A model generated the notes under the pieces. The model saw only the letters and a program-made list of their open reading frames with translations. It ran no database searches and had not been told where the DNA came from. This document shows, one piece after another, positions 33,390 through 48,249 of a stretch of DNA of 64,000 nt. The stretch covers positions 1,628,332 through 1,692,331 of the forward strand of contig JAVSMS010000001.1 of assembly GCA_032027085.1 (NCBI GenBank), written 5' to 3'. A program made the translations under genes and the position numbers. Within the stretch, counting starts at the first letter, position 1. The number at the start of each line of letters is the position of its first letter. The stretch is from Pseudorhodoplanes sp. (GTDB lineage Bacteria > Pseudomonadota > Alphaproteobacteria > Rhizobiales > Xanthobacteraceae).

Positions 33390-33812
33390 TCAAAGCCGGC
33401 CCAGTTCAAATTCCTCGCAGGAGCCTCCACACTGAGACAAGCCCTCTTCGAGATGATCCGCAAGAAGCGGTATGCCAAGAAGGTACTGCGCTGTCCGATT
33501 GTTATGCGCGCGCGACGCTTCCGCCCTGATGGCCGGCCAATCTGTAAGACTGCCGTCGCCGCGACCAAGCCACGTCAGGGCCACGAGATCAACCTGCTCA
33601 TCTTCGTTCAACGAGTTAATGAAGCGTGCGAGTTCTTCATATACGGGATCATCTCCACGGTCTTCGAGGACAGAGATCATCGCATCATCGCTCGCATTCG
33701 ACGAGCTGCCCTCGTCCGTCGCGACATCCTTGGCGTCGAATTCCCGAGCCTTGACAATGATGAAGCACACCTTCTCGGGCGAGATTGTCAGATTTGGTGA
33801 TATGATGATCAT
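33390..33812 (-). CDS. DUF3775 domain protein
   Basis: A 140-residue protein from the ATG at 33812; an upstream ATG at 33866 would add 18 residues, but AGG lies about eight bases before 33812. It begins with LTISPEKVCFIIVKAREFD and ends with LGIPLLADHLEEGL, the DUF3775 pattern. The function is unknown. It heads the lon-usp operon, and a TTGA-N6-TCAA box lies 60 bases upstream. Confidence 0.82.
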   Translation of the reverse strand: MIIISPNLTISPEKVCFIIVKAREFDAKDVATDEGSSSNASDDAMISVLEDRGDDPVYEELARFINSLNEDEQVDLVALTWLGRGDGSLTDWPAIRAEASRAHNNRTAQYLLGIPLLADHLEEGLSQCGGSCEEFELGRL

Positions 33813-33871
33813 TGGTGTTACCTGCCTGTTCATCTTCACGGATGAAAATACGTCCAAAATCCGCAATCGGT

Positions 33872-33885
33872 TTGAGATAGGTCAA
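33872..33885. promoter_or_regulatory. FixK/FNR-type box upstream of DUF3775-lon-usp
   Basis: The sequence TTGAGATAGGTCAA matches TTGA-N6-TCAA exactly. It lies 60 bases before the DUF3775 start, and a TATTTT box on the minus strand follows at a spacing that suits activation. It could also serve the divergent small gene at 34023. Confidence 0.65.
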
Positions 33886-34022
33886 CCAGTGGATGAGATG
33901 ATGTCTTTGATAGGACTGCAGAATTCCCAGCTCTTGTTTAAACTGACCTTTTTCTCAATGCGAGAAAGCGGGGAATGGTCACCCCTTTCAACTCCAATAT
34001 CGAATTCTGGATTGGAGGCCCA

Positions 34023-34247
34023 ATGAACGTCAAACTCAGCATCCGCAAAGACAATGAGATTCTGTTTGAATCGATTTACTCGATTAGTGACTCCGACAGC
34101 TTCGCGAGCGCCTGTGCCGACGCCTGGGTCAAGCTCCGCGATCGGCGGTTGGGGCAAGCCACCAGTATTGGCGAATATATGGATCGTATGAATCAGGACG
34201 TTCTCGAGGAGTTGCAGGGCGCGCAAATATCCCTCACTGGCGCCTGA
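34023..34247 (+). CDS. Small hypothetical protein
   Basis: A 74-residue protein from the ATG at 34023, with GGAGG four bases upstream. The sequence looks like a real compact protein (NVKLSIRKDNEILFESIYSI; WVKLRDRRLGQA), but I recognise no family. It precedes pncB by about 100 bases on the same strand. Confidence 0.65.
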   Translation: MNVKLSIRKDNEILFESIYSISDSDSFASACADAWVKLRDRRLGQATSIGEYMDRMNQDVLEELQGAQISLTGA

Positions 34248-34354
34248 CGGCCCGGTACTTTGTGACATCTGCACAGTGACGCTAACTTTGGCGATGCGGC
34301 TTGCGGGTTCGCTCCGGCGAGCCACCCACCCGATTTTATCGACTGGCTTGCAAC

Positions 34355-35710
34355 ATGCATTTCGCTACAAGTGCGTTATTGACCGACCTTTACCAGCTCA
34401 ACATGATCCAGGCCTATCTGGACTATGGCGAGACCAAAACGGCCGTCTTTGAGTTCTTTGTGCGAAAGCTTCCCCGCCGTCGGGGTTTCTTGATGGCAGC
34501 CGGACTTGAGCAGGCGCTTGATTTTCTCGAGAGGCTGCATTTCACGAAAGAGGAAATCGACTGGCTGGCGAATACGGGACGATTCAGTGACAAGCTACTG
34601 GCTCATCTCTCTGCGCTTCGCTTTACCGGTGACGTGCACGCCATGCCGGAGGGCGAGATTTTTTTCGCCAACGAGCCAATTCTGCGCGTCACTGCGCCGC
34701 TCGATCAAGCCCAGCTCGTTGAAACGCGCCTGATCAACATCCTGCATTTCCAGTCGTTGATCGCCGCCAAGGCCGCGCGCTTTGTGCTGTCCGCGCCAGG
34801 AAAAATGCTTGTCGATTTCGGCCTGCGGCGAGCGCACGGCGCCGAAGCCGGCCTTTGGGCAGCGCGCGCGAGCTATATCGCCGGATTTGCGGGAACTGCA
34901 ACGATGCTGGCGGAAATGGCTTTTGGCATTCCCACCTATGGGACCATGGCGCATTCTTTCATTCAGACGTTTGACAATGAAACGGCTGCCTTTGAGTCCT
35001 TTGCACAATCTCGCCCAGATAATCTGACCTTGCTGATCGACACATATGACACGGTCACCGGTGCGAAAGAGGTTGTCACGCTCGCGCCGAAGCTCAAGGC
35101 GCGCGGTATCACGATTCGCGCAGTACGCCTGGACAGCGGAGACCTTGCGTCTTTGTCCAAGATCGTTCGCCGGATCCTCGACGAGGGCGGCCTCGGCGAT
35201 ATCCTCATCTTTGCGAGTGGAGGACTCGACGAAGATCAAATCCAGAAAATGTTGCAGTCAGGAGCGCCAATTGACGGCTTCGGCCTCGGTACCAACCTTA
35301 CAACCTCTTCGGATGTGCCTGCGCTCGACTGCGCCTACAAACTGCAGGAATATGCGGGCCTGCCGCGCCGGAAGCGCTCCGAAGGCAAGGCCACCTGGCC
35401 CGGCCGCAAGCAGGTCTGGCGCCGCTATGGAGCAGACGGCCGCATGACAGGTGACGTTCTCTCGCTGGAAGACGACCCGCAGAGCGGGCAGCCGCTCTTG
35501 CACCTGGTGATGCAGAACGGGCGACGTCTTGGGCGGCCGTCTTTGACTGATATTCGAAGCCGTGCATCGAATAGTCTTCAGCGATTGCCCGAGGCTTTAC
35601 GCGCACTTGAGCCGGATGCACCCTATCCCGTCGAGGTCGCCGAGCCGCTCATCCAACTTGCGGCCGATGTCGACCGACGCCTCGCTGAGCAAAAGGACAT
35701 GCGAGGATGA
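34355..35710 (+). CDS. pncB: Nicotinate phosphoribosyltransferase
   Basis: A 451-residue protein from the ATG at 34355. It joins nicotinate and PRPP to form nicotinate mononucleotide in NAD salvage. Family signatures are LLTDLYQLNM at the start, FFVRKLPRRRGFLMAAGLEQ, DFGLRRAHG (active-site region) and RLDSGDLA, with SGGLDE and GFGLGTNL forming the phosphate-binding loops. Its stop overlaps pncA by 4 bases. Together with pncA and prs it makes a nicotinamide-to-NaMN route. Confidence 0.94.
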   Translation: MHFATSALLTDLYQLNMIQAYLDYGETKTAVFEFFVRKLPRRRGFLMAAGLEQALDFLERLHFTKEEIDWLANTGRFSDKLLAHLSALRFTGDVHAMPEGEIFFANEPILRVTAPLDQAQLVETRLINILHFQSLIAAKAARFVLSAPGKMLVDFGLRRAHGAEAGLWAARASYIAGFAGTATMLAEMAFGIPTYGTMAHSFIQTFDNETAAFESFAQSRPDNLTLLIDTYDTVTGAKEVVTLAPKLKARGITIRAVRLDSGDLASLSKIVRRILDEGGLGDILIFASGGLDEDQIQKMLQSGAPIDGFGLGTNLTTSSDVPALDCAYKLQEYAGLPRRKRSEGKATWPGRKQVWRRYGADGRMTGDVLSLEDDPQSGQPLLHLVMQNGRRLGRPSLTDIRSRASNSLQRLPEALRALEPDAPYPVEVAEPLIQLAADVDRRLAEQKDMRG

Positions 35711-36345
35711 CGCAACGCATTCTGATCGAAGAGCGGGACATCCTGCTCGTCGTCGATATCCAGTATGACTTCTGCCCGGGCGGTGCGCTTGCGGTGCCAC
35801 ACGGCGACGAGGTGATCGCTCCGATCAACCATCTGGCTCAACGTCACCGGCATGTGGTGCTGACACAGGACTGGCATCCACCGGGCCATAAATCATTCGC
35901 CTCCACGCATCCGGGAAAGAAGCCTTACGAGACTGTCGAGTTGGCTTACGGGCCGCAGATCTTGTGGCCTGATCACTGCGTGCAGGGAACACCCGGAGCG
36001 ACGCTGCACAAGGACCTCGACATTCCCCATGCTGAGCTCGTCCTCCGCAAGGGTTATCACCGCGACATTGATTCCTATTCGGCTTTTTATGAGAATGACC
36101 GCAAGACGCATACCGGACTGACCGGTTACCTGCGCGAGCGCGGCTTTACGCGAGTCTTCCTCGCCGGATTAGCCTTCGACTTTTGCGTTCGCTATTCGGC
36201 AGAGGACGCTTGCAGCGAAGGCTTTGACGTTATCGTGGTGGAAGATGCCTGCCGCGGGATAGACGTTGGTGGTTCTGTTGCCGAGACCCGCCGCAGTCTG
36301 AATGCGCGGAACGTCGCCTGTGTGGCGAGCGAGGATTTGGCGTAG
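35707..36345 (+). CDS. pncA: Nicotinamidase
   Basis: A 212-residue isochorismatase-fold enzyme that deamidates nicotinamide to nicotinate, feeding PncB. The catalytic Asp (VVDIQYDFCPGG), the metal-site DWHPPGHKSF, the Lys region (LRKGYHRDIDSYSAF) and the nucleophilic Cys (AFDFCVRYSA) are all present. The start overlaps pncB (ATGA), so the enzymes of two successive steps are co-translated. Confidence 0.94.
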   Translation: MTQRILIEERDILLVVDIQYDFCPGGALAVPHGDEVIAPINHLAQRHRHVVLTQDWHPPGHKSFASTHPGKKPYETVELAYGPQILWPDHCVQGTPGATLHKDLDIPHAELVLRKGYHRDIDSYSAFYENDRKTHTGLTGYLRERGFTRVFLAGLAFDFCVRYSAEDACSEGFDVIVVEDACRGIDVGGSVAETRRSLNARNVACVASEDLA

Positions 36346-36372
36346 CGGTGAACAGGTCCGATCCTAAGGGGG

Positions 36373-36386
36373 TTGATATAACTCAA
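36373..36386. promoter_or_regulatory. FixK/FNR-type box upstream of prs
   Basis: TTGATATAACTCAA matches TTGA-N6-TCAA and lies between pncA and prs, 64 bases before the prs start. Confidence 0.65.
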
Positions 36387-36449
36387 GGTGGGCCTCGCCG
36401 TGACCACCAATGTTGCTCGGCAATGTCCTTATCTTGGTAGTATAAGCGT

Positions 36450-37421
36450 ATGCTTGTCTTTGCGCCCAAAGCCACCCGTGAACTTGGTCAGGCGGTCGCT
36501 CAGTCACTTGGGCAGGCGCTAGCCGCCCACGAAGAGCGGGACTTCGAGGACGGCGAGCACAAAATCCGCCCTCTCGTCACCGTCCGGAATGCTGACGTTT
36601 ATATCATACAAAGCCTGCACAGCGGACCGGACGAGAGCGCCCATGATAAGCTGTGCCGGCTGCTGTTCTTCATCGGTGCGCTCAAGGATGCCGGCGCCGC
36701 TCGTGTCACCGCCATTGTCCCCTACCTCTGCTACGCACGGAAAGACCGGCGCACCAAGCTCAACGATCCGGTGACAACACGATATGTCGCCGGGATGTTC
36801 GAAGCAGTCGGAACCAGCGCCATCGTGACCCTTGACGTGCACAATCCGGTCGCGTTCGAAAACGCCTTCCGCTGCACAACCGTGACGCTGACCGCCGCGC
36901 CGCTATTTGTCGACTATGCGAGGAATTCGTTGGGGGACGAGTCCCTCACCGTTGTGTCGCCGGACACCGGCGGCGCCAAACGTGCCGATCTGCTTCGTGA
37001 GGCTCTGGAATCCGCGCTGAAACGCCCGGTTGGGAAGGGCTTTGCGGAAAAGCGCCGCAGCGCCGGCATCGTATCCGGGGATCTTTTTGTTGGTGAGGTA
37101 TCTGGCACCACTGCGCTTGTGATCGACGATCTCATCAGCACCGGCAACACTCTCGTTCGCGCTGCATACGCCGCGCGTAAGGCCGGCGCCAGCCGTGTGA
37201 TCGCGCTCGTGACGCATGGCCTATTCATGCATGGATCGGCGGAAGCCCTATCCGATCCGGCGATCGAGCGGCTGGTCGTCACCGATTCCGTGCCGTCGTT
37301 CAGGCTTGGGCCTGGACCGGCCCGCGACAAGCTGGTCGTCCTGTCAACTGCCCCGCTTCTTGCGGAGACAATCAGGCGGCTGCACGACGGCAAGTCACTC
37401 GAGGATTTGCTCGTTTTTTGA
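36450..37421 (+). CDS. prs: Ribose-phosphate pyrophosphokinase (PRPP synthase) paralogue
   Basis: A 323-residue PRPP synthase. The family core is present: DFEDGEHKIRP, YLCYARKDRR (ATP-binding flexible loop region), TLDVHNP (metal site) and VIDDLISTGNTL (PRPP-binding loop). PRPP is the co-substrate of PncB just upstream. A bacterial genome also needs a housekeeping prs, so this is probably a second, island-specific copy. A FixK-type box precedes it, hinting at hypoxic induction. Confidence 0.92.
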   Translation: MLVFAPKATRELGQAVAQSLGQALAAHEERDFEDGEHKIRPLVTVRNADVYIIQSLHSGPDESAHDKLCRLLFFIGALKDAGAARVTAIVPYLCYARKDRRTKLNDPVTTRYVAGMFEAVGTSAIVTLDVHNPVAFENAFRCTTVTLTAAPLFVDYARNSLGDESLTVVSPDTGGAKRADLLREALESALKRPVGKGFAEKRRSAGIVSGDLFVGEVSGTTALVIDDLISTGNTLVRAAYAARKAGASRVIALVTHGLFMHGSAEALSDPAIERLVVTDSVPSFRLGPGPARDKLVVLSTAPLLAETIRRLHDGKSLEDLLVF

Positions 37422-38454
37422 GACATCGTGTGAGTTCGACGGCATCCGCGATCGCAATCCGCAGATAGCTGCGGGCGACACGCGGCCACTTCTCCGGCGT
37501 GCGCGGATATGGCTCCAGCAGATGCGCGATGGCCAGTCGGGCTCGAAGAGTGGCGCGGCAGCAGCGATAGAAATTTAGCAATTCTTCCGGCGGCGCAGGG
37601 TAGAGCTGTCGCATGACCCGCCGCTTGATGTAGTCGCCGGCCCAGGAGGCCCCCAGTCGCTCGCATTCGACGCTGAGAAATGCAATTTCGTCGAAGGGAT
37701 CGACCGCGCGCAGGCGGGCGTTGAATTCGAGGCGATCGATGATCTTGACCGGCTTGTTCAGCCAGATGTGTTCGGGTCGCAGATCGCCGTGGCAATCGAC
37801 GATAGCGTGCCGGCGGACGCGCATCCTCAACATTGCTGCGCGTCGCCGCAAAAATTGGATCTGCGCCGATTTTACGTAGGCGAGTTGTCCGGCCGGTAGA
37901 CCCAGTGACGGTTCCGTTAAAATACGAAAATTATAAGCAATATTCCACCACCAATCTGCAAAATACTCTTCCGACGTCATTCTCGCCACCGGCGCATGTC
38001 GGTAGAAACGAACAAGCAAATCCGCCAGTTGATCAAGTTGCGGATACTTCACGCGCTTATCAATAATTGATTGCTCCATCGTCTGGCTTTCGTCCAGCCG
38101 CCGCATCACCACCAGCCAGTCCACGACCGTTCCGTCGCCGCCCAGCGCGAGCCCCGAAGCATGTTGCGTCAACGGAACAACGCCGAGATAGACATCCGGC
38201 GCGAGCTCGCGATTCAGCCTGACTTCCGCGCGGCAGGCCGCCTCGCGGCGGGTCAGCGTCGAAAAATCAAGATAAGGGAAGCGAACCGGTTTCTTCAGCT
38301 TGTAGACACGATCCCGTGCGAGAAACACCCAAGACATGTGGGTTTCCCGCGGCACAACACTGTCGGTCGGGCGTGGATATGTCGCCGCACAGCTCAGAAA
38401 CGCAACTTTGGCGTCAAGGGGAACATCGTCGCCGATGGGCCTGTAGTGATGCAC
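37372..38454 (-). CDS. Aminoglycoside-phosphotransferase-like kinase
   Basis: A 360-residue protein with the APH kinase fold: VYKLKKPVRFPYLDF (ATP lysine), MRRLDESQTM, and the catalytic loop VDCHGDLRPEHIWL followed by IIDRLEFN for metal binding. This is the kinase half seen in 'bifunctional APH/ATP-binding' proteins, without the C-terminal P-loop domain. The substrate is unknown. Its 3' end overlaps the prs 3' end by about 50 bases on the opposite strand, and it diverges from the hydrolase gene across a FixK-type box. Confidence 0.85.
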   Translation of the reverse strand: MHHYRPIGDDVPLDAKVAFLSCAATYPRPTDSVVPRETHMSWVFLARDRVYKLKKPVRFPYLDFSTLTRREAACRAEVRLNRELAPDVYLGVVPLTQHASGLALGGDGTVVDWLVVMRRLDESQTMEQSIIDKRVKYPQLDQLADLLVRFYRHAPVARMTSEEYFADWWWNIAYNFRILTEPSLGLPAGQLAYVKSAQIQFLRRRAAMLRMRVRRHAIVDCHGDLRPEHIWLNKPVKIIDRLEFNARLRAVDPFDEIAFLSVECERLGASWAGDYIKRRVMRQLYPAPPEELLNFYRCCRATLRARLAIAHLLEPYPRTPEKWPRVARSYLRIAIADAVELTRCLKKRANPRVTCRRAAA

Positions 38455-38541
38455 ATCCGCTCCTTGCCATCCCTGTCAAGCACCAACCCCCGTGGCGCTG
38501 CCGAAATAGGCTATCAAATACCGCGGAACGCGAGATCGCTC

Positions 38542-38555
38542 TTGATCCTCGTCAA
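38542..38555. promoter_or_regulatory. FixK/FNR-type box between APH-like kinase and hydrolase
   Basis: TTGATCCTCGTCAA matches TTGA-N6-TCAA. It sits in the divergent region, 88 bases before the minus-strand kinase gene. A TATTTGATA stretch on the minus side is a plausible -10 region. It lies only about 34 bases before the hydrolase ATG at 38589. Confidence 0.65.
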
Positions 38556-38588
38556 AATAACCCAGACGAAGCTGACGATAATGTAAAC

Positions 38589-39293
38589 ATGCGGAAAAGT
38601 CTTGGCCAAGCGAGCGAGCATTCACGGGAGCCCGTGCTTCCGGTGAAACGCCATGACGTGCGCATTCCGCCGCTTGGACTATCCGGCATCCTGCAACTGC
38701 CCGAAGACGCCTATGCACTGGTGATCTTCGCGCATGGTAGCGGGTCGAGCCGTCTCAGTCCGCGCAACACCGCCGTCGCGGATGCGATCAACCGCAACGG
38801 CATTGCCACATTGCTTTTCGACCTGCTGACCACCCAAGAAGAATATGATCGCGCTAACGTGTTCGATATTCCCTTGCTGGCCGAACGCCTGATCCAGGCG
38901 GTCGCGTGGAGCGAGCAACAGCCAGAGCTTGAACGCCTGCCCATCGGGCTGTTTGGCGCCAGTACCGGCGCTGCCGCCGCGCTGGTAACGGCTGCCAGAC
39001 TCGGCCACCGAATCGGAGCGGTCGTTTCGCGTGGTGGCCGGCCTGATCTGGCAGATCGTGCCCTCAGCCGTGTTATCACGCCAACGCTTCTGATCGTCGG
39101 TGGTTCGGATACCGAAGTCATCGTATTGAACCGTAGCGCTTTCGCTGAGTTGAAGGAACCGAAGGCCCTGCACATCGTACCGAATGCCAGCCACCTGTTC
39201 CCCGAGCCTGGGGCGATGGAAGCTGTCATCAAAGCGGCAATCGACTGGTTCGAGACGTACTTGGGCGCAGATGCCCATGATGACAAACCCTGA
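38589..39293 (+). CDS. Alpha/beta hydrolase (dienelactone hydrolase-like)
   Basis: About 234 residues from the ATG at 38589; GTG codons at 38636 and 38645 are possible later starts, and the box at 38542 would suit them better. The fold signatures are VIFAHGSGSSRLSPRN (oxyanion region), the nucleophile elbow GLFGASTGAAAA, TPTLLIVGGSD (acid) and PNASHLFPEPG (histidine). It is similar to small hydrolases often found next to phosphoribosyltransferases, as here. Confidence 0.87.
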   Translation: MRKSLGQASEHSREPVLPVKRHDVRIPPLGLSGILQLPEDAYALVIFAHGSGSSRLSPRNTAVADAINRNGIATLLFDLLTTQEEYDRANVFDIPLLAERLIQAVAWSEQQPELERLPIGLFGASTGAAAALVTAARLGHRIGAVVSRGGRPDLADRALSRVITPTLLIVGGSDTEVIVLNRSAFAELKEPKALHIVPNASHLFPEPGAMEAVIKAAIDWFETYLGADAHDDKP

Positions 39294-39307
39294 ACTGAGG
39301 CTGCGCC

Positions 39308-39982
39308 ATGCCCTTTCACAATCGATCCGACGCCGGGCGCAAACTTGCCGGCGCCCTCGCCCGCTACAAGACGGAGCACCCTGTCATTCTTGCATTGCCG
39401 CGCGGCGGCGTGCCAGTCGCCGCGGAGATTGCAAGCGCGCTTGATGCGCCGCTAGACCTCGTTCTCGTGCGGAAAATCGGCGTTCCCACCCAGCCCGAAC
39501 TGGCCATGGGCGCGGTGGTGGATGGCGGCCATCCGATCGTGGTTCGCAATGAGGACGTCATCGGGCTGGCGGGTATTGACGACACGGAATTCAATGCGGC
39601 CTGCGAGCGAGAGCTTGGAGAAATCGAGCGGCGCCGGCAAGCCTATTTGGGCGATCGCGACCGCATCGACATCGCCGGGTGCACGGCGATCGTCGTCGAC
39701 GACGGGATTGCGACCGGTGCGACGACACGCGCAGCACTTCGTGGAGCACGCGCCCGCAATCCGAAACGGCTTGTTATCGCCGTTCCGGTTGCCCCGACAG
39801 ACTCGCTGGCGGAATTACATTCCGAGGCCGATGACATCGTCTGCTTGGAAGATTATGCTGTATTCGGCGCGATCGGATTTTTCTACGCGGATTTCCGCCA
39901 AGTCACAGATCGCGATGTCATCGAAATACTTGCTCGCTTTCCGCCTCTATCTAGACCTCGCGGCCAGCAACCGGCTGCATGA
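39308..39982 (+). CDS. Phosphoribosyltransferase-domain protein
   Basis: A 224-residue PRTase-fold protein with LALPRGGVPVAAEIA at the N-terminus and a PRPP loop VVDDGIATGATTRAAL. It starts 15 bases after the hydrolase gene, so the two are co-transcribed. The acceptor base is unknown. It is the third gene in this block that uses or makes PRPP. Confidence 0.9.
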   Translation: MPFHNRSDAGRKLAGALARYKTEHPVILALPRGGVPVAAEIASALDAPLDLVLVRKIGVPTQPELAMGAVVDGGHPIVVRNEDVIGLAGIDDTEFNAACERELGEIERRRQAYLGDRDRIDIAGCTAIVVDDGIATGATTRAALRGARARNPKRLVIAVPVAPTDSLAELHSEADDIVCLEDYAVFGAIGFFYADFRQVTDRDVIEILARFPPLSRPRGQQPAA

Positions 39983-40018
39983 CGAGTTCGCCGCCTCAGC
40001 CAAACAGAGACGGATGCC

Positions 40019-40558
40019 TCAGCCTGAGCGTTTGTACGAGCAAAGCGTTTTCATGTCTGCAACGTGTCCCGCATCTGCCATTGCAGCAAGCTGGCGCAGA
40101 TCGGATTCCTCAACCGAAGTGTGTTCATGCTCACCGGCAACGCCGAGATCTTTCGCTTTCCGCGGAGCGCCGGAATAGGTCGCGAGGAACAGATGCATAC
40201 GTTCGGTGGAAATTCCCGGCATGGTCCATGCTATGGACACGGATTCGAGCGATAGAAGGGCAATCCCTGCTTCCTCAAGGGATTCTCGGCGCGCGCAGAC
40301 TGTGGCGTCGGGTTCGACCAAGATTCCGGCAATGCACTCGCGTGTGATCCCGCCCGTCTATCAGGAAGACTGGTGCGCGAAACTGGCGAATCAGAATTGC
40401 GACCTTGCGCTGCGGATTACACGGAAGCACGGCGACGGCGGCGCCGTGGTCCTCGATCTCACGGCGGATGACTTCACCCGTGGCTGGCGGATCGTCGCAA
40501 CCAGAAAACACGCCCAGCCCTGATATTTGGTCTCGGTGGCAACAATCTCGGTATCCAT
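40019..40558 (-). pseudogene. NUDIX hydrolase gene broken by two frameshifts
   Basis: Starting at the ATG at 40558 (MDTEIVATETKYQGWACFLV), the frame moves near 40485 to PATGEVIRREIEDHG and VAILIRQFRAPVFLIDGRDH. It shifts again near 40335 to GILVEPDATVCARRESLEEA, the NUDIX-box region. The pieces together make an ADP-ribose-pyrophosphatase-like protein of about 180 residues. With two indels it cannot be functional as read. Confidence 0.78.
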
Positions 40559-40601
40559 GTCGATCGGCCCTCGTCGAAGGAGATCGACGCATCGGTGTTT
40601 G

Positions 40602-40615
40602 TTGACCTAGGTCAA
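40602..40615. promoter_or_regulatory. FixK/FNR-type box upstream of HPF-CSD and groEL
   Basis: TTGACCTAGGTCAA is a perfect palindrome matching TTGA-N6-TCAA. It is centred about 67 bases before the gene at 40676. A CTATTT box near 40638 would place a start site about 41 bases from the centre, the class II geometry of FNR-type activators. Confidence 0.7.
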
Positions 40616-40675
40616 CACCGTGATCGCGCTTTTGGCCTCTATTTTCGAGCACAGAAGATAAGGCCGAGCGCCCCC

Positions 40676-41239
40676 ATGCAGACGCCAGTTGAGATCGACT
40701 TTCAAGGAATGGAACCGGATGCCGTGGCTCGTGCAGCCATTGATGATCATATTGCGGAACTGGAGAATCGTTTTGGTCGAATTACCACCTGTCGCGTAGT
40801 GCTGAAGAATCCGGGCCGTCACCACCGGACCGGAGGATTATATGAGGTTAGTATCAGGCTCGCGCTGCCAAACGGCAAGGAAGTGAATGTCTCGCGCACG
40901 CCGCCGGCTGACGAACGCCATTCTGACATATCCTTCGCCATCAACGATGCCTTCAAACATGCGCGCCGCCAGTTGCAGGATCAGGTGCGTGAGCTGCAAG
41001 GGCAGATCAAAACCCACGACGCTCAGCCGGTTGGCACTATCACCCAACTGCACGACGACTTTGGCTTTCTGCAGACTGAAGATGGGCGGGAAATCTACTT
41101 TCACCGCAACAGTGTATTAGAGGACAAATTTCCACGCCTGACACCCGGCACACGCGTCATCTTTGTGGAGGAGATGGGAGAAAAAGGAGCACAAGCCAGT
41201 ACAGTCAAGCTCCTGGGAAAGCACCGCTTGCGGCCGTAA
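40676..41239 (+). CDS. HPF/RaiA-like ribosome-hibernation domain fused to a cold-shock domain
   Basis: A 187-residue protein from the ATG at 40676. Residues 1-110 resemble the sigma-54-modulation/HPF family (VEIDFQGMEPD, IAELENRFGRITTCRVVL). Residues 120-185 form a cold-shock domain with DFGFLQTEDGREIYFHRNSV, carrying both RNA-binding motifs, and VIFVEEMGEKG. HPF proteins inactivate ribosomes during dormancy; CSDs bind single-stranded RNA or DNA. It is followed by groEL 15 bases later, so it is co-transcribed under the upstream box. Confidence 0.88.
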   Translation: MQTPVEIDFQGMEPDAVARAAIDDHIAELENRFGRITTCRVVLKNPGRHHRTGGLYEVSIRLALPNGKEVNVSRTPPADERHSDISFAINDAFKHARRQLQDQVRELQGQIKTHDAQPVGTITQLHDDFGFLQTEDGREIYFHRNSVLEDKFPRLTPGTRVIFVEEMGEKGAQASTVKLLGKHRLRP

Positions 41240-41254
41240 CTGGAGGAGTTTTTC

Positions 41255-42877
41255 ATGCCGCACAAGCATGTCCTGTTCAGGTCAGCCGCCCGTGAAAAAA
41301 TTCTGCGCGGCGCAACACAACTTGCCGATGCCATCCGCGTCACCTTGGGACCAAAATCGAAGTCGGTGCTGATTCAGAAGAGCTGGGGGGCGCCGATTGT
41401 CTGCAATGACGGCGTGACCATCGCCAAGGAACTCGATCTGGAAGACGCCGATGAGAATCTTGGCGTCCAGGTGCTGCGCCAAGCCGCCGAGAAGACCGGC
41501 GACTTGGTCGGCGACGGAACCAGTACGGCGACAATCCTGGCCCACGCGATCTTTTCCGACGGGATTCGCAATGTCGTTGCCGGCGCAAGCGCCGTCGATC
41601 TCAAGCGCGGCCTGGACCAAGGTGCCAAAGTCGCCATCGACACGCTCAAAACTCTCGCGCGCCCAGTCAAAACCCGCAAGGAGAAGGCGCAAGTCGCCAC
41701 TATCTCCGCGCACAATGAAACGGATATCGGAGAGCTTGTCGCCGACGCCATCGAGAAGGTCGGGGACGACGGCGTCATCTCGGTCGAAGAATCGAAAACC
41801 ACGGAAACAACCCTCGAAGTCGTTGAGGGCATGCAGTTCGATCGCGGTTTCGTATCTCCCTATTTCGTGACGGATCCGGAGCGGATGGAGGCCGTTCTGG
41901 AAGACCCGTTCATCCTCCTTTGCGACCGCAAGATCGGCAATCTGCGCGACATGCTGCCCCTGCTGGAGCAAGTTGCCAAATCAGGGCGACCGCTTCTGGT
42001 CATTGCCGATGATATCGAGGGCGAGGCTCTGGCCACGCTCATCGTCAATCAGATCCGCGGCGTCCTGAAAGGGTGCGCCGTCAAGGCGCCGGGTTTCGGG
42101 GATCGCCGCAAAAGCATCCTGGAGGACATTGCGATTCTGACCGGCGCGCAGCTTATTTCCGAGGATATCGGTATCAAGCTGGAGAGAGCGACCACCGACC
42201 AGCTCGGGCGTGCTGCCCGCGTCGTGATCAACAAGGAAAACACGACCATCATTGGCGGCAAGGGGCAACGCGCTCAGATCGACGGCCGTGTGCAGCAAAT
42301 TCGTCACGAGATGGAAAAGTCCACAAGCGACTACGACCGCGAAAAGCTGCAGGAGCGTCTTGCCAAGCTCTCAGGAGGGGTGGCAGTAGTCCGCGTTGGT
42401 GCACCGTCGGAAGCCGAAATGAAGTCGAAGAAGGAAGCGCTTGATGATGCCATCCATTCGACAAAGGCCGCGGTTGCGGAGGGCGTCGTTGCCGGCGGTG
42501 GGCTTGCCCTCCTGCGCTGTATCGCAACAGTAGCGCGTGAAGAGCAGAATGCCGATGGCGACGAGAAAACCGGCTTGCAGATTCTCAAGCGGGCACTTGA
42601 CGCCCCCGCCCGGCAGATCGCCGAGAATTCCGGTGTCGATGGCGGCGTCGTTGTCGCCCGCATGACCGAAGGCAAGGACTCCTGGGGTTTCGACGCCGCA
42701 CGCAAGCAATATGTCGACCTGATCGATGCAGGCATCATCGATCCTGTCAAGGTCGTGCGTATTGCACTTGAGAATGCGGTTTCCGTCGCAAGCGTGCTGT
42801 TGCTGACGGAAGCAACCATGACAAATATTCCGGAAAAGCCGAAGGAACGGACGAGCGAGCCGGAGATGGCCCTTTAG
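41255..42877 (+). CDS. groEL: GroEL-type chaperonin (60 kDa)
   Basis: A 540-residue group I chaperonin. Conserved features include [39 protein letters not shown] (ATP site) and [11 protein letters not shown]. The C-terminus ends in [11 protein letters not shown] and lacks the usual GGM repeats. There is no groES next to it. It is likely a stress-specific paralogue, since alphaproteobacteria often have several groEL genes. GGAGG lies upstream of the ATG. Confidence 0.95.
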
Positions 42878-42886
42878 GATCGTGCG

Positions 42887-43189
42887 ATGCATGCTGCCGG
42901 ACGAATGCTGTTTCTTGCCGGACTCCTCTTCTGGCCGGCGATTCCCCAGGCTGCAGAACCGCCGAGGATCGTGCGAGTTTGCGCGAGCTGCCATGGTCTC
43001 GATGGGGTCGGCCAGAACGTGGACATTCCAAACATTGCCGGCCAGTCCGGCATTTACTTAAAAAATCAGCTTCGCGCATTCCGCAACGGACAGCGCAGAC
43101 ACCCGCAGATGACGATCAGCGCCGAGCAGCTAACTGATCGCGAAATCGATCAAATCGTGACGCACTACGCCCTGATGCCAGCGCGTTAG
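42887..43189 (+). CDS. Small secreted c-type cytochrome
   Basis: A 100-residue protein with a signal peptide (RMLFLAGLLFWPAIPQAA) and a single haem motif CASCHGLDG. An axial methionine is likely in HPQMTI or ALMPAR. It resembles class I c553/c4-half cytochromes that carry electrons in the periplasm. It begins 9 bases after groEL, so it may be in the same transcript. Confidence 0.88.
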   Translation: MHAAGRMLFLAGLLFWPAIPQAAEPPRIVRVCASCHGLDGVGQNVDIPNIAGQSGIYLKNQLRAFRNGQRRHPQMTISAEQLTDREIDQIVTHYALMPAR

Positions 43190-43224
43190 CTCGTTTTACA
43201 GCGCCGATCATAAAAGGCTCCGCC

Positions 43225-43452
43225 ATGCCCTATCGCACCAACGAGGACCTGCCTGTTCCGGCGCAGCGGCACCTGCCACCGCAGGCCCAGGACATCTATC
43301 GCGAAGCATTCAATCACGCTTTCGCGGCCCATGTTGGCGAAGGAGACCAGGAGGAGAGAGCGCATCGCATCGCCTGGGCTGCGGTCAAACGTTCTTATGT
43401 CAAGGTTGAAGATTCCTGGGTCAGGAGAAGTGGCCTGGACGACGCAGGGTGA
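43225..43452 (+). CDS. chaB: ChaB-family protein
   Basis: A 75-residue protein with the ChaB pattern: LPPQAQDIYREAFNHAF, then HRIAWAAVKRSYVK. ChaB was first described as a regulator of the ChaA cation antiporter, but the molecular role is uncertain. It lies 35 bases after the cytochrome gene. Confidence 0.88.
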   Translation: MPYRTNEDLPVPAQRHLPPQAQDIYREAFNHAFAAHVGEGDQEERAHRIAWAAVKRSYVKVEDSWVRRSGLDDAG

Positions 43453-43472
43453 GTTTAGCAGGGACGATGATT

Positions 43473-43486
43473 TTGACCATGATCAA
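43473..43486. promoter_or_regulatory. FixK/FNR-type box upstream of the YPYY-rich protein
   Basis: TTGACCATGATCAA matches TTGA-N6-TCAA and its right half is the full FNR ATCAA. It is centred about 64 bases before the start at 43544. Confidence 0.65.
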
Positions 43487-43543
43487 TGAGGACCCTGCAG
43501 TGACGACCAAAGTAGCGGTGTCATTTATCGAAGGGATCACGCC

Positions 43544-43930
43544 ATGTTCAATAGGTTCAACCTTCTGACGACTTTCTTTCTTTGTCTTGCCGTGTTTTCG
43601 AGCGGAAACACTGCGTCAGCATCATCCGTCCCGACCAAACCAGAAGCGGCACCAGTAAATGCGACGGCCATAGCAACTCCGGACGAGTTCTCCTCATCCT
43701 GGCGTGGGCGACGGAATACGGCGATTGCCCTTGGCATTGCTGCCGGCGTTCTCGGAGCGGCCGCTTTCGGTGCGTACCCCTACTACTATCCGTATCCCTA
43801 TTATGGGTATTATGGGCCAGCCTATCCCTATTATGGACCTGCCGCCGTCCATGTTCGGCCACGCAAGGTTCGCTGCTGGGTCTATGATCCTTATCGCGGC
43901 GTGCGGTACCGGACCTATTGCTACCGTTAG
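43544..43930 (+). CDS. Exported Tyr/Pro/Gly-rich small protein
   Basis: A 128-residue protein. The N-terminal hydrophobic stretch (LLTTFFLCLAVFSSGNTASA) is a likely signal peptide. A second hydrophobic segment (TAIALGIAAGVLGAAAFGAY) precedes a repeat of YPYY and GYYG units at about 80-105. The last part holds RCWVYDPYRGVRYRTYCYR, with two cysteines. It resembles small envelope proteins common in Hyphomicrobiales, whose function is unknown. Confidence 0.75.
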   Translation: MFNRFNLLTTFFLCLAVFSSGNTASASSVPTKPEAAPVNATAIATPDEFSSSWRGRRNTAIALGIAAGVLGAAAFGAYPYYYPYPYYGYYGPAYPYYGPAAVHVRPRKVRCWVYDPYRGVRYRTYCYR

Positions 43931-43993
43931 TCAGCAAAACATGAGCTGCTGCCGGTTTTCAGCCGGCTGCAGGCTTTTGCCGAGAGCTGATTG

Positions 43994-44661
43994 TCAACCC
44001 TTGATGCAGATCACCGGCTTGAGGCGCGCCACACGCCGTGCGAGGCCGGCGTGTTCGGCCGCTGCCACAACAGCACCGACATCCTTGTAGGCGCCCGGCG
44101 CTTCCTCGGCGACGCCACGCGTTGATGGGCTCCTGATCAGAATTCCCTCCGACGCGAGATCATCGATGATTTTGCGTCCGCTCCACTGCTTGAGCGCAGC
44201 ATGACGCGACAGCGCACGCCCGGCCCCGTGGCAGGCCGACGAAAAGGCTTTTCGCTCGCTGCTTTCCGCGCCCACCATAATATATGAGCCGGTGCCCATG
44301 CTGCCGCCGACTTTCTGACGGGAACGATGTCAGCGATTGACAGGCCCGTCAGCATCGTGCGCACGCCACATGAAATATCGAAGCCGACGCCGCCCGCGGA
44401 AACAACGCCGCCTTGCTCGGCGTCGAAGGCCGCAACGCCGCCAATCGGAAATCCATAGCCCCAATGAGCATCCGGCATGACGTAGCAGGCTTGCACGATT
44501 CCCGGCAGCTTGGTGACATTTACAGCCTGCTCATAGACCTTGTCATCCATATCGCGAATGAGATCCGCGTCGGCATAAAGGATCGCCGGCACACGCATCG
44601 CTCCGTGCGGTTCGATCTGCCATGTGTATTCATCAATGCGGTTGAAGCGGGCAAAATCCAT
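43994..44661 (-). pseudogene. rtcB: RtcB RNA ligase gene with large internal deletion
   Basis: The first roughly 120 residues are a normal RtcB N-terminus ([38 protein letters not shown]). Near 44310 the frame jumps to a C-terminal segment ([24 protein letters not shown]; ending PVICIKG) in another frame. RtcB is usually 400-480 residues, so roughly 200 or more central residues, including most metal ligands and the nucleotide-binding histidine region, are missing. It lies 12 bases downstream of archease. Confidence 0.88.
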
Positions 44662-44673
44662 CGCCGTTCTCCG

Positions 44674-45153
44674 CTAAACATCCACGATGCAGCCAGCGCT
44701 CCATCGGCCATCGGCGTCTTGTGCAACCTTCAGCGCCGTGTAGGTGGCACCTTTCGGCTCACAGGCCGGAGCATGTCGTGCCACGTCCACGGGCTCGCCC
44801 CACAGCGTACCCCTGAGCCGCTCGCCGTTGATCGTGACGTCAAATCGGCCAAATAGCGCTTTACCAACTGCCATTTCATAGATGATCGCGTTCAGCCATT
44901 CGACAAACAAAAGCTCAAGATCAGGCGCTTCGCAGGCCACCTTCACCGCCACACGCGGCTCCACCGGCGCGTGCGTAACCACCGCCATCAGCGCCAACGC
45001 TGCATGCTCAAACGCTTCCGCGGGAGTTGCACCCCATCCGCGCACGCCGATATCAGCATCATGCGGAAACAGCTCCCACCGCGACCCGCCTTCTTGGTCC
45101 GGGGTGAAGCCGTTTATGGCACCCGTCTCGCCCATATCGATATATGGATGCAC
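44674..45153 (-). CDS. Archease (RtcB cofactor)
   Basis: A 159-residue protein with FPHDADIGVRGWGATPAEAF at the N-terminus, LELLFVEWLNAIIYEM in the middle and CIVDV at the C-terminus, all archease hallmarks. Archease speeds guanylation of RtcB and keeps it cycling. The frame is intact although the neighbouring rtcB is deleted. It starts two bases after the small gene at 45156-45386. Confidence 0.92.
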   Translation of the reverse strand: MHPYIDMGETGAINGFTPDQEGGSRWELFPHDADIGVRGWGATPAEAFEHAALALMAVVTHAPVEPRVAVKVACEAPDLELLFVEWLNAIIYEMAVGKALFGRFDVTINGERLRGTLWGEPVDVARHAPACEPKGATYTALKVAQDADGRWSAGCIVDV

Positions 45154-45155
45154 AG

Positions 45156-45386
45156 CTAACGCGTATATTCGGCTTCGTCCTCATCCATCGCAAGTATGTC
45201 AACAATTTGCGCCGCCGCCTCACTGAGCTGATATCCGTCCTTCGCCAAGATATCGCTGTCACCTGCGAGCCACATGGCAGCCGCTTCAAGATCGACGAGC
45301 GACGGTTTCAGCGCCAGAATCTCAATAATTTTATTATCGTCGATGTCGCCGAGCACGGCTTTGATTTCGTCCCGAGTGACAGTCAT
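45156..45386 (-). CDS. Small hypothetical acidic protein
   Basis: A 76-residue acidic protein (TRDEIKAVLGDIDDNKIIEI; DILAMDEDEAEYTR). It is helical by appearance, with no recognised domain. It is the first gene of the minus-strand unit with archease and rtcB and has a FixK-type box 86 bases upstream. Confidence 0.72.
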   Translation of the reverse strand: MTVTRDEIKAVLGDIDDNKIIEILALKPSLVDLEAAAMWLAGDSDILAKDGYQLSEAAAQIVDILAMDEDEAEYTR

Positions 45387-45471
45387 GGTGAAAACCTCAC
45401 TCCTTGGATACGCATGCTGTGTTTAAGACAGCCTAAGTATCAATTTCTTCCAACAATGGGCCGCATCGGCC

Positions 45472-45485
45472 TTGATTTGCCTCAA
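45472..45485. promoter_or_regulatory. FixK/FNR-type box upstream of the archease operon
   Basis: TTGATTTGCCTCAA matches TTGA-N6-TCAA. It lies between the capA stop and the small gene starting at 45386, in the upstream region of the minus-strand archease/rtcB unit. Confidence 0.62.
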
Positions 45486-45521
45486 TCGTTCCTTGCGGGA
45501 TTGGTCGTTCGGTGTCCTATC

Positions 45522-46637
45522 TCATTGATCTGCCAGCCAGGCTACGGCCAAGCGACTCTCTCCAGTGGTTGCTACACTAGTGCCGAAGGGGCGGCTTTCG
45601 CGATCCAGCGTCTGCCATACCCAGTCGACATCCTCGCGCGACGGGCGAACAAGCCGGAATTGCCGGATCTGAAGAGGAACAATTTCAAGCGCCGCCAGCT
45701 TCCCGCTTCCTGGCTCAAGGTCCACGAAATACATCAGCGCGAGATCATCGCGGTATTGCTCGTATGCCGAAATACCCTCGTAATCGTTCAGAAAATCGCC
45801 GCAGCCATACAGGATCAAACGTCCACGATAGACTTCAATCCCCTTGGCGTGATGCGAAGAATGGCCGTGAACGACGGACACCTTCCCGTCATCAATCAAC
45901 GCATGGGCGAAACACTGCTGCTCTCGCGGAATGTCGTAGCCCCAATTAAGCCCCCAATGAATAGAGACAACAACAATATCACCGGGCCGTCGCGCCTGCG
46001 CAATTTGCTCGCAGAGCCGCACGGCGCTCGCCTCCGACAGGTCCGCCAAGAAATTGACACCAGGGACATTTGATGTCGCGGCCCAACTGCGCGGCACTCC
46101 GCTCTCCGGCAAAGCCAGTGAAATCACCAGCACGCGCCCCTTACCGGAGATGCCGATAACCGCTGGTGCAGCTGCGTCCCGCAAATTGCGCCCTGCACCC
46201 GCTGTCTTGATCTGCAGCCGCTCCAGCCTCCTCAAAGTGTCGATCAGGCCGGCCCGGCCCCAGTCGAGCACATGATTGTTTGCGAGCACGCAGCAATCGA
46301 TGCCGAAAACGGAAAGACATTCCGCGTTTTCGGGGCTCATGCGGTAATTGATTCCCTTTGGCGCAAAATCCTCGCATCGTGTAATACTGGTTTCGAGATT
46401 GATGATGCGCGCATCCGGCCGACTGCTTTTTAATTCGTCGAGCGCCGTGCCCCAGATATATGACGGCGCGACGCCTCTCGGAATCGAACCATGCGCAGCT
46501 TCGGTGAGTTCCACATAATCGAGCGCCGACTGTACATAGCTTTCGTGCAGACGTGGATCGCAGGGACACGGCAGCACCTGATCAACCCCTCGGCCCGTCA
46601 TGACGTCACCGCAGAGAAACAAGCGAATGCGCTGCAT
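45522..46637 (-). CDS. CapA-family (poly-gamma-glutamate synthesis-like) metallophosphatase
   Basis: A 371-residue protein of the PGA_cap family. It shows LFLCGDVMTGRGVD at the start, INLETSIT, VLANNHVLDWG, VVSIHWGLNW and VHGHSSHHAKG, the metal-binding pattern of calcineurin-like CapA proteins. It lacks an obvious signal peptide. Such proteins occur outside capsule loci as phosphatase-like enzymes of unknown substrate. It is 20 bases downstream of the YbhB-like gene on the same strand. Confidence 0.88.
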   Translation of the reverse strand: MQRIRLFLCGDVMTGRGVDQVLPCPCDPRLHESYVQSALDYVELTEAAHGSIPRGVAPSYIWGTALDELKSSRPDARIINLETSITRCEDFAPKGINYRMSPENAECLSVFGIDCCVLANNHVLDWGRAGLIDTLRRLERLQIKTAGAGRNLRDAAAPAVIGISGKGRVLVISLALPESGVPRSWAATSNVPGVNFLADLSEASAVRLCEQIAQARRPGDIVVVSIHWGLNWGYDIPREQQCFAHALIDDGKVSVVHGHSSHHAKGIEVYRGRLILYGCGDFLNDYEGISAYEQYRDDLALMYFVDLEPGSGKLAALEIVPLQIRQFRLVRPSREDVDWVWQTLDRESRPFGTSVATTGESRLAVAWLADQ

Positions 46638-46657
46638 CGCAAGCCCCCGGCGACAAG

Positions 46658-47116
46658 CTATCGCTTATAAGTACCGACGAGGACGGCCTCGGCGAGCACA
46701 TACTTGTGCGCTTCCCGCGCGACGTCACGGCAGGTCGCATGGCCGCGCAAATTGAGGTGATCGACCGACAGCGCCAGCAGGCGGAAGTGATAGCGGTGCG
46801 CCCCGTGCCCATGCGGCGGACAGGGCCCGCCATAGCCGGGCCGATGAAAATCGTTGATCACCTGCTTCAAGCCCTGCCCGCCCGCATGTGCCGAGGCGTT
46901 CGCCAACAGCGCCGTCTGCGTCGCCGGGATGTCGTAAGCCGCCCAGTGATGCCAAGTTCCCGCAGGCGCGTCCGGATCGTCGCAGAGCAGCACGAAGCTG
47001 CGGGTTTCCTGCGGCGCACCGCTCCATTCCAGCGGTGGCGACAGATCCTCTCCATCGCAAGTGAAATCGCGCGGGATCGCGGCGCGGGCGGCAAAGGCAC
47101 TCGAGCTGAGTAACAT
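46658..47116 (-). CDS. YbhB/YbcL (PEBP, Raf-kinase-inhibitor-like) protein
   Basis: A 152-residue protein from the ATG at 47116. PEBP motifs are FTCDGEDLSPPLEWSGAP, CDDPDAPAGTWHHWAAYDIP and GPCPPHGHGAHRYHF. The bacterial family's function is unclear. It heads the ybhB-capA unit and diverges from the RNase Z-like gene across a FixK-type box. Confidence 0.92.
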   Translation of the reverse strand: MLLSSSAFAARAAIPRDFTCDGEDLSPPLEWSGAPQETRSFVLLCDDPDAPAGTWHHWAAYDIPATQTALLANASAHAGGQGLKQVINDFHRPGYGGPCPPHGHGAHRYHFRLLALSVDHLNLRGHATCRDVAREAHKYVLAEAVLVGTYKR

Positions 47117-47164
47117 GACACAACTCCTAGCAATTGAAGTTTGCCGCCTTCCCCGCCGCATGGA

Positions 47165-47178
47165 TTGATATGGGTCAA
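47165..47178. promoter_or_regulatory. FixK/FNR-type box in the YbhB / RNase Z-like divergent region
   Basis: TTGATATGGGTCAA matches TTGA-N6-TCAA. It lies 49 bases from the minus-strand start at 47116 and 52 bases from the plus-strand start at 47230, so it could act on both. Confidence 0.67.
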
Positions 47179-47229
47179 GATCGCATGTGAATGTCCGGAC
47201 GTAGTCTTGGTTCACCTGGAGCTTTTACC

Positions 47230-48249
47230 ATGCGCGCCCTGCTCCATTCCACGCTCGTGAACGGGCGGACCGGCGATCCGGCGCTTTATATCGAAACGCT
47301 GTTCGAGCAGGGTGCGATCCTGTTCGATCTCGGCGATATTTCAGCGCTGCCGCCGCGCAAGATCCTCCGCCTGGAGCACGTCTTCGTCTCCCACACCCAT
47401 ATCGATCACTTTGTCGGCTTCGACCAGATGTTGCGCGTATTGGTGGGCCGGGAAAAACGGCTCAGCTTGTACGGCCCCGATGGTTTTATCACGCATGTCC
47501 GCCATAAGCTGCACGCCTATCATTGGAATCTCGTTGACCGCTATTCCAGTGACCTCGTTTTCATGGTCACGGAAATTGACGCGTCATTTTCCACGCGGAC
47601 AGTGCAGTTCCGCTTCAAAACCGGCTTTGCCGAGGAAGCGATAAGCAAGGGCCGGCTCACCTCCGGTATCGCGCACCAGGAGGCAGGCTTCCGTGTCTCC
47701 GCTACGGTGCTCGAACACGGGACGCTGTGTCTTGCATTCGCCGTGGAGGAAGACGCCCATATCAACGTCTGGAAGAATCGCCTCGCGGAGCTCGGCCTGC
47801 CGGTTGGCCCCTGGCTGCGCGTGCTCAAGCGTGCGGTGATCGAGAACAGATCCGATGATTATCTGCTTCGCATCACAATCCGCGGCACGCCGCCGTGCGA
47901 CATGCCGCTTGGGGCGCTGCGCAGCGCGGTCACGGTTACGCCGGGGCAAAAGGTCGCTTACGTCACTGACGCGGCCGACACCAAAACAAATCGCGATGCG
48001 ATCATCGCGTTGGCGCGGAATGCCGACATTCTGTTCATCGAGGCAGCCTTCGCAGCAGAAGACACTGAACTTGCAGCCGAGCGCGCGCATTTGACCACGA
48101 CGGCCGCCGGTGAGATTGCGCGTGCAGCCGATGTACGGCGTGTCGAGGCGTTTCATTTCTCACCCCGCTACGCCGGGCAGGACGAGCGGATGCTGAACGA
48201 GGTCCGCGCGGCGTTTGCCGACTCACCCTGCGCAGGCAGCGTTGCGTGA
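47230..48249 (+). CDS. RNase Z-like metallo-beta-lactamase-fold hydrolase
   Basis: A 339-residue protein from the ATG at 47230, with GGAG about nine bases upstream. The metal site VSHTHIDHFVGFD, the strand TVLEHGTLCLAFAVEE, VAYVTDAADT and the C-terminal FHFSPRY give the MBL fold of the RNase Z/ElaC type. Whether it processes tRNA 3' ends is unknown; long divergent members may act on other RNAs. It fits the RNA-repair theme of the island (RtcB, archease). Confidence 0.87.
   Translation: MRALLHSTLVNGRTGDPALYIETLFEQGAILFDLGDISALPPRKILRLEHVFVSHTHIDHFVGFDQMLRVLVGREKRLSLYGPDGFITHVRHKLHAYHWNLVDRYSSDLVFMVTEIDASFSTRTVQFRFKTGFAEEAISKGRLTSGIAHQEAGFRVSATVLEHGTLCLAFAVEEDAHINVWKNRLAELGLPVGPWLRVLKRAVIENRSDDYLLRITIRGTPPCDMPLGALRSAVTVTPGQKVAYVTDAADTKTNRDAIIALARNADILFIEAAFAAEDTELAAERAHLTTTAAGEIARAADVRRVEAFHFSPRYAGQDERMLNEVRAAFADSPCAGSVA

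Follow-up and report, generated by a model that had tools for sequence, protein, structure and literature searches.

The window analysed here comprises 64,000 nucleotides of Pseudorhodoplanes sp. (GCA_032027085.1, contig JAVSMS010000001.1, positions 1,628,332 to 1,692,331 of the forward strand) and carries a gene block, in the following referred to as the island, in which exact TTGA-N6-TCAA palindromes (boxes) occur. The initial annotation, made from the sequence alone, had listed seven of these, and all seven are found at 33872, 36373, 38542, 40602, 43473, 45472, and 47165. With good confidence, they are considered putative FixK/FnrN-type operators by which the island would be activated at low oxygen. 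The island contains the following genes:

30008..30847, minus strand: orf279, unclassified (no Pfam match at E<=5, no NCBIfam match)
30856..33366, minus strand: Lon-like protease (LonB AAA_32, LonC helical, Lon_C; family match)
33390..33812, minus strand: DUF3775 protein (family match)
34023..34247, plus strand: orf74 (no Pfam match)
34355..35710, plus strand: nicotinate phosphoribosyltransferase (NAPRT; family match)
35707..36345, plus strand: isochorismatase/nicotinamidase-type hydrolase (PncA; family match)
36450..37421, plus strand: second-type ribose-phosphate pyrophosphokinase (Prs; family match)
37372..38454, minus strand: orf360, aminoglycoside-phosphotransferase-like kinase domain (no Pfam match; some plasmid relatives are annotated as bifunctional aminoglycoside phosphotransferase/ATP-binding protein)
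38589..39293, plus strand: alpha/beta hydrolase (two possible starts, 38589 and 38643, the latter favoured by the gene caller)
39308..39982, plus strand: phosphoribosyltransferase (PRT; family match)
40676..41239, plus strand: HPF (S30AE) fused to a cold-shock domain (family match)
41255..42877, plus strand: GroEL paralogue (family match)
42887..43189, plus strand: cytochrome c (family match)
43225..43452, plus strand: ChaB (family match)
43544..43930, plus strand: small Tyr/Pro-rich ORF (no Pfam match above cut-off)
43994..44661, minus strand: RtcB remnant, N- and C-terminal pieces with the middle gone (model positions 68-322 uncovered)
44674..45150, minus strand: archease, intact-looking (family match)
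45156..45386, minus strand: orfS, small conserved ORF (found in related loci)
45522..46637, minus strand: CapA/PGA_cap-type protein (family match)
46658..47116, minus strand: PEBP family protein (family match)
47230..48249, plus strand: RNase Z-type metallo-hydrolase (NF002558, 388.8 bits, cut-off 315)

The names initially given to the Lon-like, Prs, HPF, GroEL, archease, CapA-type, and RNase Z-type genes were supported, except for that of a universal stress protein (Usp), which was not confirmed. Its candidate, orf279, was rejected after the empty Pfam and NCBIfam searches and a single-sequence AlphaFold prediction that was uninformative (mean pLDDT 37.8), and neither the Usp nor the Hsp20 family was matched among the island proteins scanned. 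Judged by gene order, the genes presumably form the units DUF3775-Lon-orf279, orf74-NAPRT-nicotinamidase, Prs, orf360, hydrolase-phosphoribosyltransferase, HPF/cold-shock-GroEL-cytochrome c-ChaB, the Tyr/Pro-rich ORF, orfS-archease-RtcB remnant, PEBP-CapA, and the RNase Z-type gene. The boxes, given without strand, are assigned to them as follows:

33872..33885: box 1, TTGAGATAGGTCAA, DUF3775-LonC-orf279 (minus strand) and perhaps orf74-NAPRT-PncA (plus strand); centre 66.5 bp from the DUF3775 start and 144.5 bp from the orf74 start
36373..36386: box 2, TTGATATAACTCAA, Prs; centre 70.5 bp from the Prs start
38542..38555: box 3, TTGATCCTCGTCAA, divergent orf360 and hydrolase-PRT; centre 94.5 and 40.5 bp from the starts
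40602..40615: box 4, TTGACCTAGGTCAA, HPF-GroEL-cytochrome c-ChaB; centre 67.5 bp from the HPF start
43473..43486: box 5, TTGACCATGATCAA, small ORF 43544-43930; centre 64.5 bp from the start
45472..45485: box 6, TTGATTTGCCTCAA, orfS-archease-(broken RtcB); centre 92.5 bp from the start
47165..47178: box 7, TTGATATGGGTCAA, divergent PEBP-CapA and RNase Z-type gene; centre 55.5 and 58.5 bp from the starts

Eight exact matches occur in the window, namely boxes 1-7 and a match at 14832, which is located inside a TnsB-like transposase ORF (13275-15641) and has A as the fifth base of both half-sites. In 100 dinucleotide shuffles of the window, a mean of 0.97 matches was obtained; the largest count was 4, and no shuffle contained 8. 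The whole genome (4,968,360 bp) contains 100 sites versus 15 for the reversed pattern. Among the 94 of these sites that were located, the island is the densest 13.3-kb cluster with 7 sites, followed by a cluster of 4. When 100 sites were distributed uniformly 20,000 times, a count of 7 per 13.3 kb never occurred, and a count of 6 was reached in 0.085% of the trials. The genome-wide motif scan, which had been proposed as a check, thus leaves the low-oxygen reading standing. For the 15 kb around the island, a spacer of 6 gave 7 matches and every other spacer from 0 to 16 gave 0-2. An A at base 5 was observed in none of the 14 half-sites of the seven boxes and in 1% of 123 sites from 30 related loci.

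As stated in the initial annotation, all seven boxes are situated between genes, though 13.1% of 33367-48249 is intergenic. The distance from the box centre to the nearest start codon is 40-95 bp in all cases. Except for NAPRT and the RtcB fragment, all gene starts between 33.4 and 48.2 kb with 60 bp of non-coding sequence upstream (10 out of 12) have a box within 200 bp. The MgtE-type gene that starts at 29822, to the left of these genes, has no box.

Box-to-gene stretches were aligned on the box and turned toward the gene start, with divergent sites counted both ways. A peak of TATAAT-like hexamers starts 28.5 bp downstream of the box centre in 50 stretches of the own genome (9 in the window) and 29.5 bp downstream in 74 stretches of related loci, and this peak was reached by none of 300 shuffles in either set. 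For a box centred at -41.5, the -10 element belongs at approximately 28.5-29.5 bp from the box centre. As a group, the boxes are therefore located at the class II distance from the -10 element.

Candidate regulators are encoded elsewhere in the genome. At approximately 1.024-1.030 Mb, genes for a LuxR-output response regulator and a PAS histidine kinase, a CRP-family gene, and an oxidase cluster occur in this order, the latter opening with a 550-aa COX1 protein gene (ccoN) that is preceded by two boxes. This region is read as a putative fixLJ-fixK-ccoNOQP cluster, with a family search that covered COX1 and two-component domains only. The FixK protein (fetched stretch L116:6826-7494) finds its best PDB match in FixK2 (4I2O, E 6.2e-57), with the recognition helix LTIETVSR versus LTLETVSR in 4I2O. 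A second, FnrN-like CRP-family protein combines a Cys-rich N-terminus with an ETVSR helix, and its gene has a box 44.5 bp before an ATG chosen by us as the start; both PDB alignments of this protein start after the Cys-rich stretch, and Fe-S ligation was not confirmed. Cognate regulators with an ETVSR-type recognition helix are thus encoded. With 20 matches (15 over cut-off) in an HTH family search of the genome, further regulators may read the box.

The remainder of the genome contains 92 sites, 58 of which were covered by 40 fetched stretches; these represent a non-random choice, picked for clusters and mostly with T/C at base 5. According to a simple codon-usage gene caller, 51 of the 58 are intergenic. 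Pfam searches of 30 genes near these sites revealed COX1 (twice), nosZ, Hsp20, Usp, CBS-BON, OmpW, a radical-SAM gene, and two CRP-family genes with upstream boxes (L121:3187-3912 and L139:484-1182). No obvious oxygen link is seen for other genes near the sites, including those for transporter binding proteins, an amidohydrolase, an aminotransferase, and a protocatechuate-type dioxygenase, and three of the 30 genes gave no Pfam match. The box-bearing Hsp20 and Usp genes are located outside the island.

Conservation was followed over the best 80 of 164 loci from a Prs scan, which were divided by record title into 34 alphaproteobacterial loci, 5 Gluconacetobacter loci, and 41 others. In the 34 alphaproteobacterial loci, spacer 6 gave 127 matches and other spacers 0-10. 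The Gluconacetobacter loci gave none for spacer 6 and 0-6 for other spacers, and all 80 loci without grouping gave 149 for spacer 6 and at most 35 for any other. The loci of 15 alphaproteobacterial genomes contain 79 boxes in 309 kb, i.e., 255 per Mb versus 16 per Mb genome-wide (sizes rounded); for one of these genomes (L047) the density is not significant alone.

Judged by exact boxes no more than 300 bp ahead of a gene in the alphaproteobacterial loci, the sites are conserved at homologous genes, albeit unevenly. A box precedes Prs in 14 of 34 cases, orf360 in 18 of 30, the hydrolase in 14 of 18 (in many cases through a divergent site shared with orf360), NAPRT in 5 of 10, GroEL relatives in 6 of 8, orfS in 3 of 3, and orf74 in 2 of 2. 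Within the first 300 bp inside the genes, no box was observed in Prs, orf360, the hydrolase, NAPRT, and GroEL, and one each in LonC, ChaB, and orfS; the former five genes remain free of boxes when the first 600 bp are considered. For the 46 loci outside the alphaproteobacterial group, boxes occur at 3 of 46 Prs starts and 1 of 38 orf360 starts. The best match to a FixK query scores 98-186 bits in 15 box-bearing alphaproteobacterial genomes, 85-91 bits in 5 Gluconacetobacter (no locus boxes), 84-91 bits in 3 Methylobacter (locus boxes 1, 0, and 0), and 55-62 bits in 8 Halomonas/Billgrantia (no boxes), a correlation that is only suggestive since these genomes were chosen after the box counts had been seen.

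Of the 80 loci with Prs, 71 contain orf360, mostly right beside Prs, including three Bacteroidetes-type loci and gammaproteobacteria; among six cyanobacterial loci, one carries orf360. The two genes appear to have formed a functional unit for a long time.

Several points weigh against low-oxygen operators and their conservation. The grouping of the loci was made after the counts had been seen, the 34-locus group includes two members with names no more specific than proteobacteria as well as two other Acetobacteraceae, and the five Gluconacetobacter loci that were set apart are also alphaproteobacterial and lack the box. The 41 other loci show no excess for spacer 6 (22 versus 4-26), and loci of related species are not independent. 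In the alphaproteobacterial loci, few boxes precede PRT (1/16), CapA (1/4), PncA (2/7), ChaB (1/6), and DUF3775 (2/6), and none precedes HPF (0/3), LonC (0/1), and the RNase Z-type gene (0/1); several of these low-count genes are second genes of their units. Taken singly, the window promoters have weak-looking -10 elements, and the short distance between box 3 and the annotated hydrolase ATG leaves no room for a class II start, although this gene may start later. The box alone does not separate FixK, FnrN, and NnrR/DNR-type regulators. Finally, RtcB is present in the whole genome only as two fragments, both in the island, so that the archease is without an intact partner in the genome.

Because a box precedes most gene groups and the arrangement recurs in many related bacteria, it is very likely that the block functions as a single programme for survival at low oxygen. 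The single coordinated programme proposed initially is supported by the boxes, the regulators, the boxed standard low-oxygen genes, and the conservation, except for two of its parts: Usp was not confirmed in the block, and RNA repair is doubtful due to the broken RtcB. As predicted from sequence, a fall in oxygen would either raise FixK via FixL-FixJ or be sensed by an FnrN-like protein itself. A CRP-family dimer of the FixK/FnrN type would then bind each box approximately 41.5 bp before the transcription start (class II position), and the seven promoter regions would be switched on together. The products may keep the cell non-growing and protected, with the GroEL paralogue and the Lon-type protease acting on protein quality, HPF on ribosome storage, and NAPRT/nicotinamidase together with Prs on the supply of nicotinamide adenine dinucleotide (NAD) and phosphoribosyl pyrophosphate (PRPP).

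The proposed match to FixK2/FNR-type boxes agrees with the FixK2 consensus TTGA/C-N6-T/GCAA (PMC9104804). In the fixK2 mutant of Bradyrhizobium diazoefficiens, the operon bll3117-bll3116-bll3115 (thymidine phosphorylase, Prs, and MBL) is reported as down, with bll3117 and bll3115 listed with a box containing one mismatch, and groEL5 (TTGC variant box), hspC2, Usp, CBS, and other genes have FixK2 boxes and lower expression (PMC9104804). Prs, MBL, and thymidine phosphorylase of this species are induced at 0.5% oxygen, and the available part of PMC6515984 does not mark them as FixK2 targets. The FixK2 regulon resembles the island and the box-bearing genes of this genome in the box itself, situated mostly tens of bp before starts (PMC9104804, PMC6515984), and in its related Prs-MBL operon, groEL5, Hsp20, Usp, CBS, and host attachment protein genes. 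Unlike the seven promoter regions within 13.3 kb of probably acquired DNA, its genes are spread over several loci, and NAPRT, HPF, archease, and CapA are not among the genes described in the available parts of PMC9104804 and PMC6515984.

The alphaproteobacterial FNR/FixK/DNR core regulons share the box (PMC2908626, PMC4999443), and counterparts of their cbb3 oxidase, OmpW, Hsp20, CBS, and Usp genes are boxed in this genome. In contrast to the island, the core table, as far as available, is without Prs, NAPRT, HPF, and CapA, and only the FixK entries "putative kinase" and "cytochrome c class I" might correspond to island genes, by name (PMC2908626). The lxa locus of Burkholderia cenocepacia is similar in being a contiguous set of low-oxygen-induced stress genes, reported as required for anoxic persistence (PMC6127331, PMC9733578). 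A FixK homologue is discussed as its possible regulator, and it is likened to DosR (PMC6127331); the word FNR is absent from the main text of PMC6127331 and PMC9733578. It differs in size (about 50 genes, with six Usp; PMC6127331, PMC9733578), and the island lacks the lxa-type combination of a contiguous block with several Usp and an Hsp20-kind heat shock protein. Judged by name, the DosR regulon of Mycobacterium tuberculosis may offer counterparts in the ribosome-associated Rv0079, the putative phosphoribosyltransferase Rv0571c, the nicotinamide-recycling Rv0573c, the cell-wall Rv0574c, and the RtcB Rv2631 (PMC5309233), with the difference that these genes are under DosR control. DosR-type genes are described as widespread, perhaps via horizontal transfer (PMC5309233). 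FixK2/FNR control of stress genes is already known, whereas this block, conserved as it is in loci with Prs, is a new member of that kind; in the literature covered by our search, partly in excerpt, no description of this block as one FixK island was found, which is not proof that none exists.

Two other explanations appear unlikely to a similar degree. According to the first, the sites are read mainly by a nitric oxide-sensing NnrR/DNR-type relative, and the island would respond to nitrosative stress or denitrification and not to low oxygen itself. DNR has the same box as FNR and FixK (PMC2908626), nosZ is boxed, and so are the two other CRP-family genes, but a clear FixK is encoded beside fixLJ-like and cco-type genes, and related genes are FixK2-dependent in B. 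diazoefficiens (PMC9104804). The second explanation regards the boxes as leftovers of an acquired island that is decaying and no longer a working programme here. The broken RtcB, the low G+C content at third codon positions (GC3) of acquired DNA, and the region 39983-40675 before HPF, in which no gene family was recognised, are in agreement with this, but the seven boxes are intact, the listed genes except for RtcB read through without internal stops, and matching regulators are kept in the genome. A chance or compositional cluster without regulatory meaning, suggested by the chance frequency of the 8-base motif (about once per window) and the match in the transposase ORF, was rejected as practically negligible due to the scan statistic, spacer control, intergenic placement, conservation, and -10 geometry.

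Regarding its origin, the block is most likely acquired DNA, because of its low GC3, the patchy occurrence of Prs in the genus, and a similar block on a Bosea plasmid. GC3 is 0.658 in the island genes (n=16), compared to 0.766 in 144 genes of the fetched stretches (Mann-Whitney p 1.3e-8), 0.657 in the left part of the window (n=9), and 0.784 right of 48.3 kb (n=13). The step from approximately 0.66 to 0.78 near 48300 is likely the right edge of an acquired region spanning the left three quarters of the window. A search of seven genomes of the same genus, some of them incomplete, gave Prs matches at E<=1e-40 in two (84% and 67% identity), and the nearest named Prs locus among the best 80 of 164 is that of a Pseudorhodoplanes sp. 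metagenome-assembled genome (Prs 84%). The block would have arrived horizontally with the boxes probably aboard, i.e., they may already have been in place.

Twelve plasmid regions were chosen by us from 40 of 128 and 40 of 102 records. Boxes occur in those of Bosea (8), Ensifer adhaerens (6), and Rhizobium leguminosarum (1) and in none of the other nine. The Bosea region contains GroEL, ChaB, phosphoribosyltransferase, an orf360 relative, Prs, and Usp, with its 8 boxes in 25 kb; according to the PLSDB gene lists, 7 of these 8 are intergenic, two of them without a listed start within 300 bp, and 3 of the 6 E. adhaerens boxes are inside listed genes. The Pararhizobium and Sinorhizobium K101 regions came without a gene list, and in Chelatococcus CO-6 and Paracoccus the phosphoribosyltransferase occurs in an apparently unrelated neighbourhood. 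Sphingobium plasmids L160 and L165 carry related phosphoribosyltransferase, PRPP synthetase, thymidine phosphorylase, and MBL genes without an exact FNR box; their blocks have their own response regulator(s), and a PAS protein is annotated in L160. No FNR box was found in a Rhodococcus plasmid block with PRT and orf360 relatives. Three plasmid blocks were scanned for a GGGAC/GTCCC inverted repeat, an approximation of the DosR site, with spacers 0-11; it was absent from the Bosea and Sphingobium blocks and matched once each at spacers 0 and 1 in the Rhodococcus block.

Left of the island, a Tn7-like gene set extends over 12302-20350, with TnsA-like (below the Pfam cut-off), TnsB-like (rve/Mu-transpos_C), TniB, and two TniQ genes. 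It is adjoined by an integrase ORF (20964-21833, minus strand), presumably of the IS3 kind. A perfect 50-bp tandem duplication (20891-20990) lies across the junction of a NYN-domain ORF (20460-20951, minus strand) and this integrase ORF. The region 22806-25958 encodes a protein of 1050 aa that starts with a PNP_UDP_1 domain, followed by a long remainder without assigned domain. Two diverged copies (83%; 178 and 87 bp) with inverted arms, 26099-26365 and 27965-28230, flank a nucleotidyltransferase-type gene (27204-27521). A tRNA scan of the window was empty.

Tentatively, the block may represent one version of a mobile cassette for dormancy at low oxygen, comprising Prs and the adjacent kinase-like gene, hydrolase-phosphoribosyltransferase, NAPRT, HPF, GroEL, and CapA. 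Such a cassette would move between lineages and be wired to the oxygen switch of its host, i.e., FixK/FNR boxes in Hyphomicrobiales (including the Bosea plasmid) and different control in Sphingobium, Gluconacetobacter, Halomonas, and actinobacteria, DosR users among them. If true, one set of survival genes would on several occasions have come under the control of oxygen regulators that are unrelated to each other. The island links a small group of little-studied genes that lends itself to testing (orf360, DUF3775, the hydrolase-phosphoribosyltransferase pair, the HPF-cold-shock fusion, and the extra Prs) to a predicted low-oxygen switch, and since several of them occur in many alphaproteobacteria, a role in survival without oxygen is suggested. 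A survival programme seems to be passed from one bacterium to another along with the sites that regulate it, and in function it parallels medically relevant dormancy regulons.

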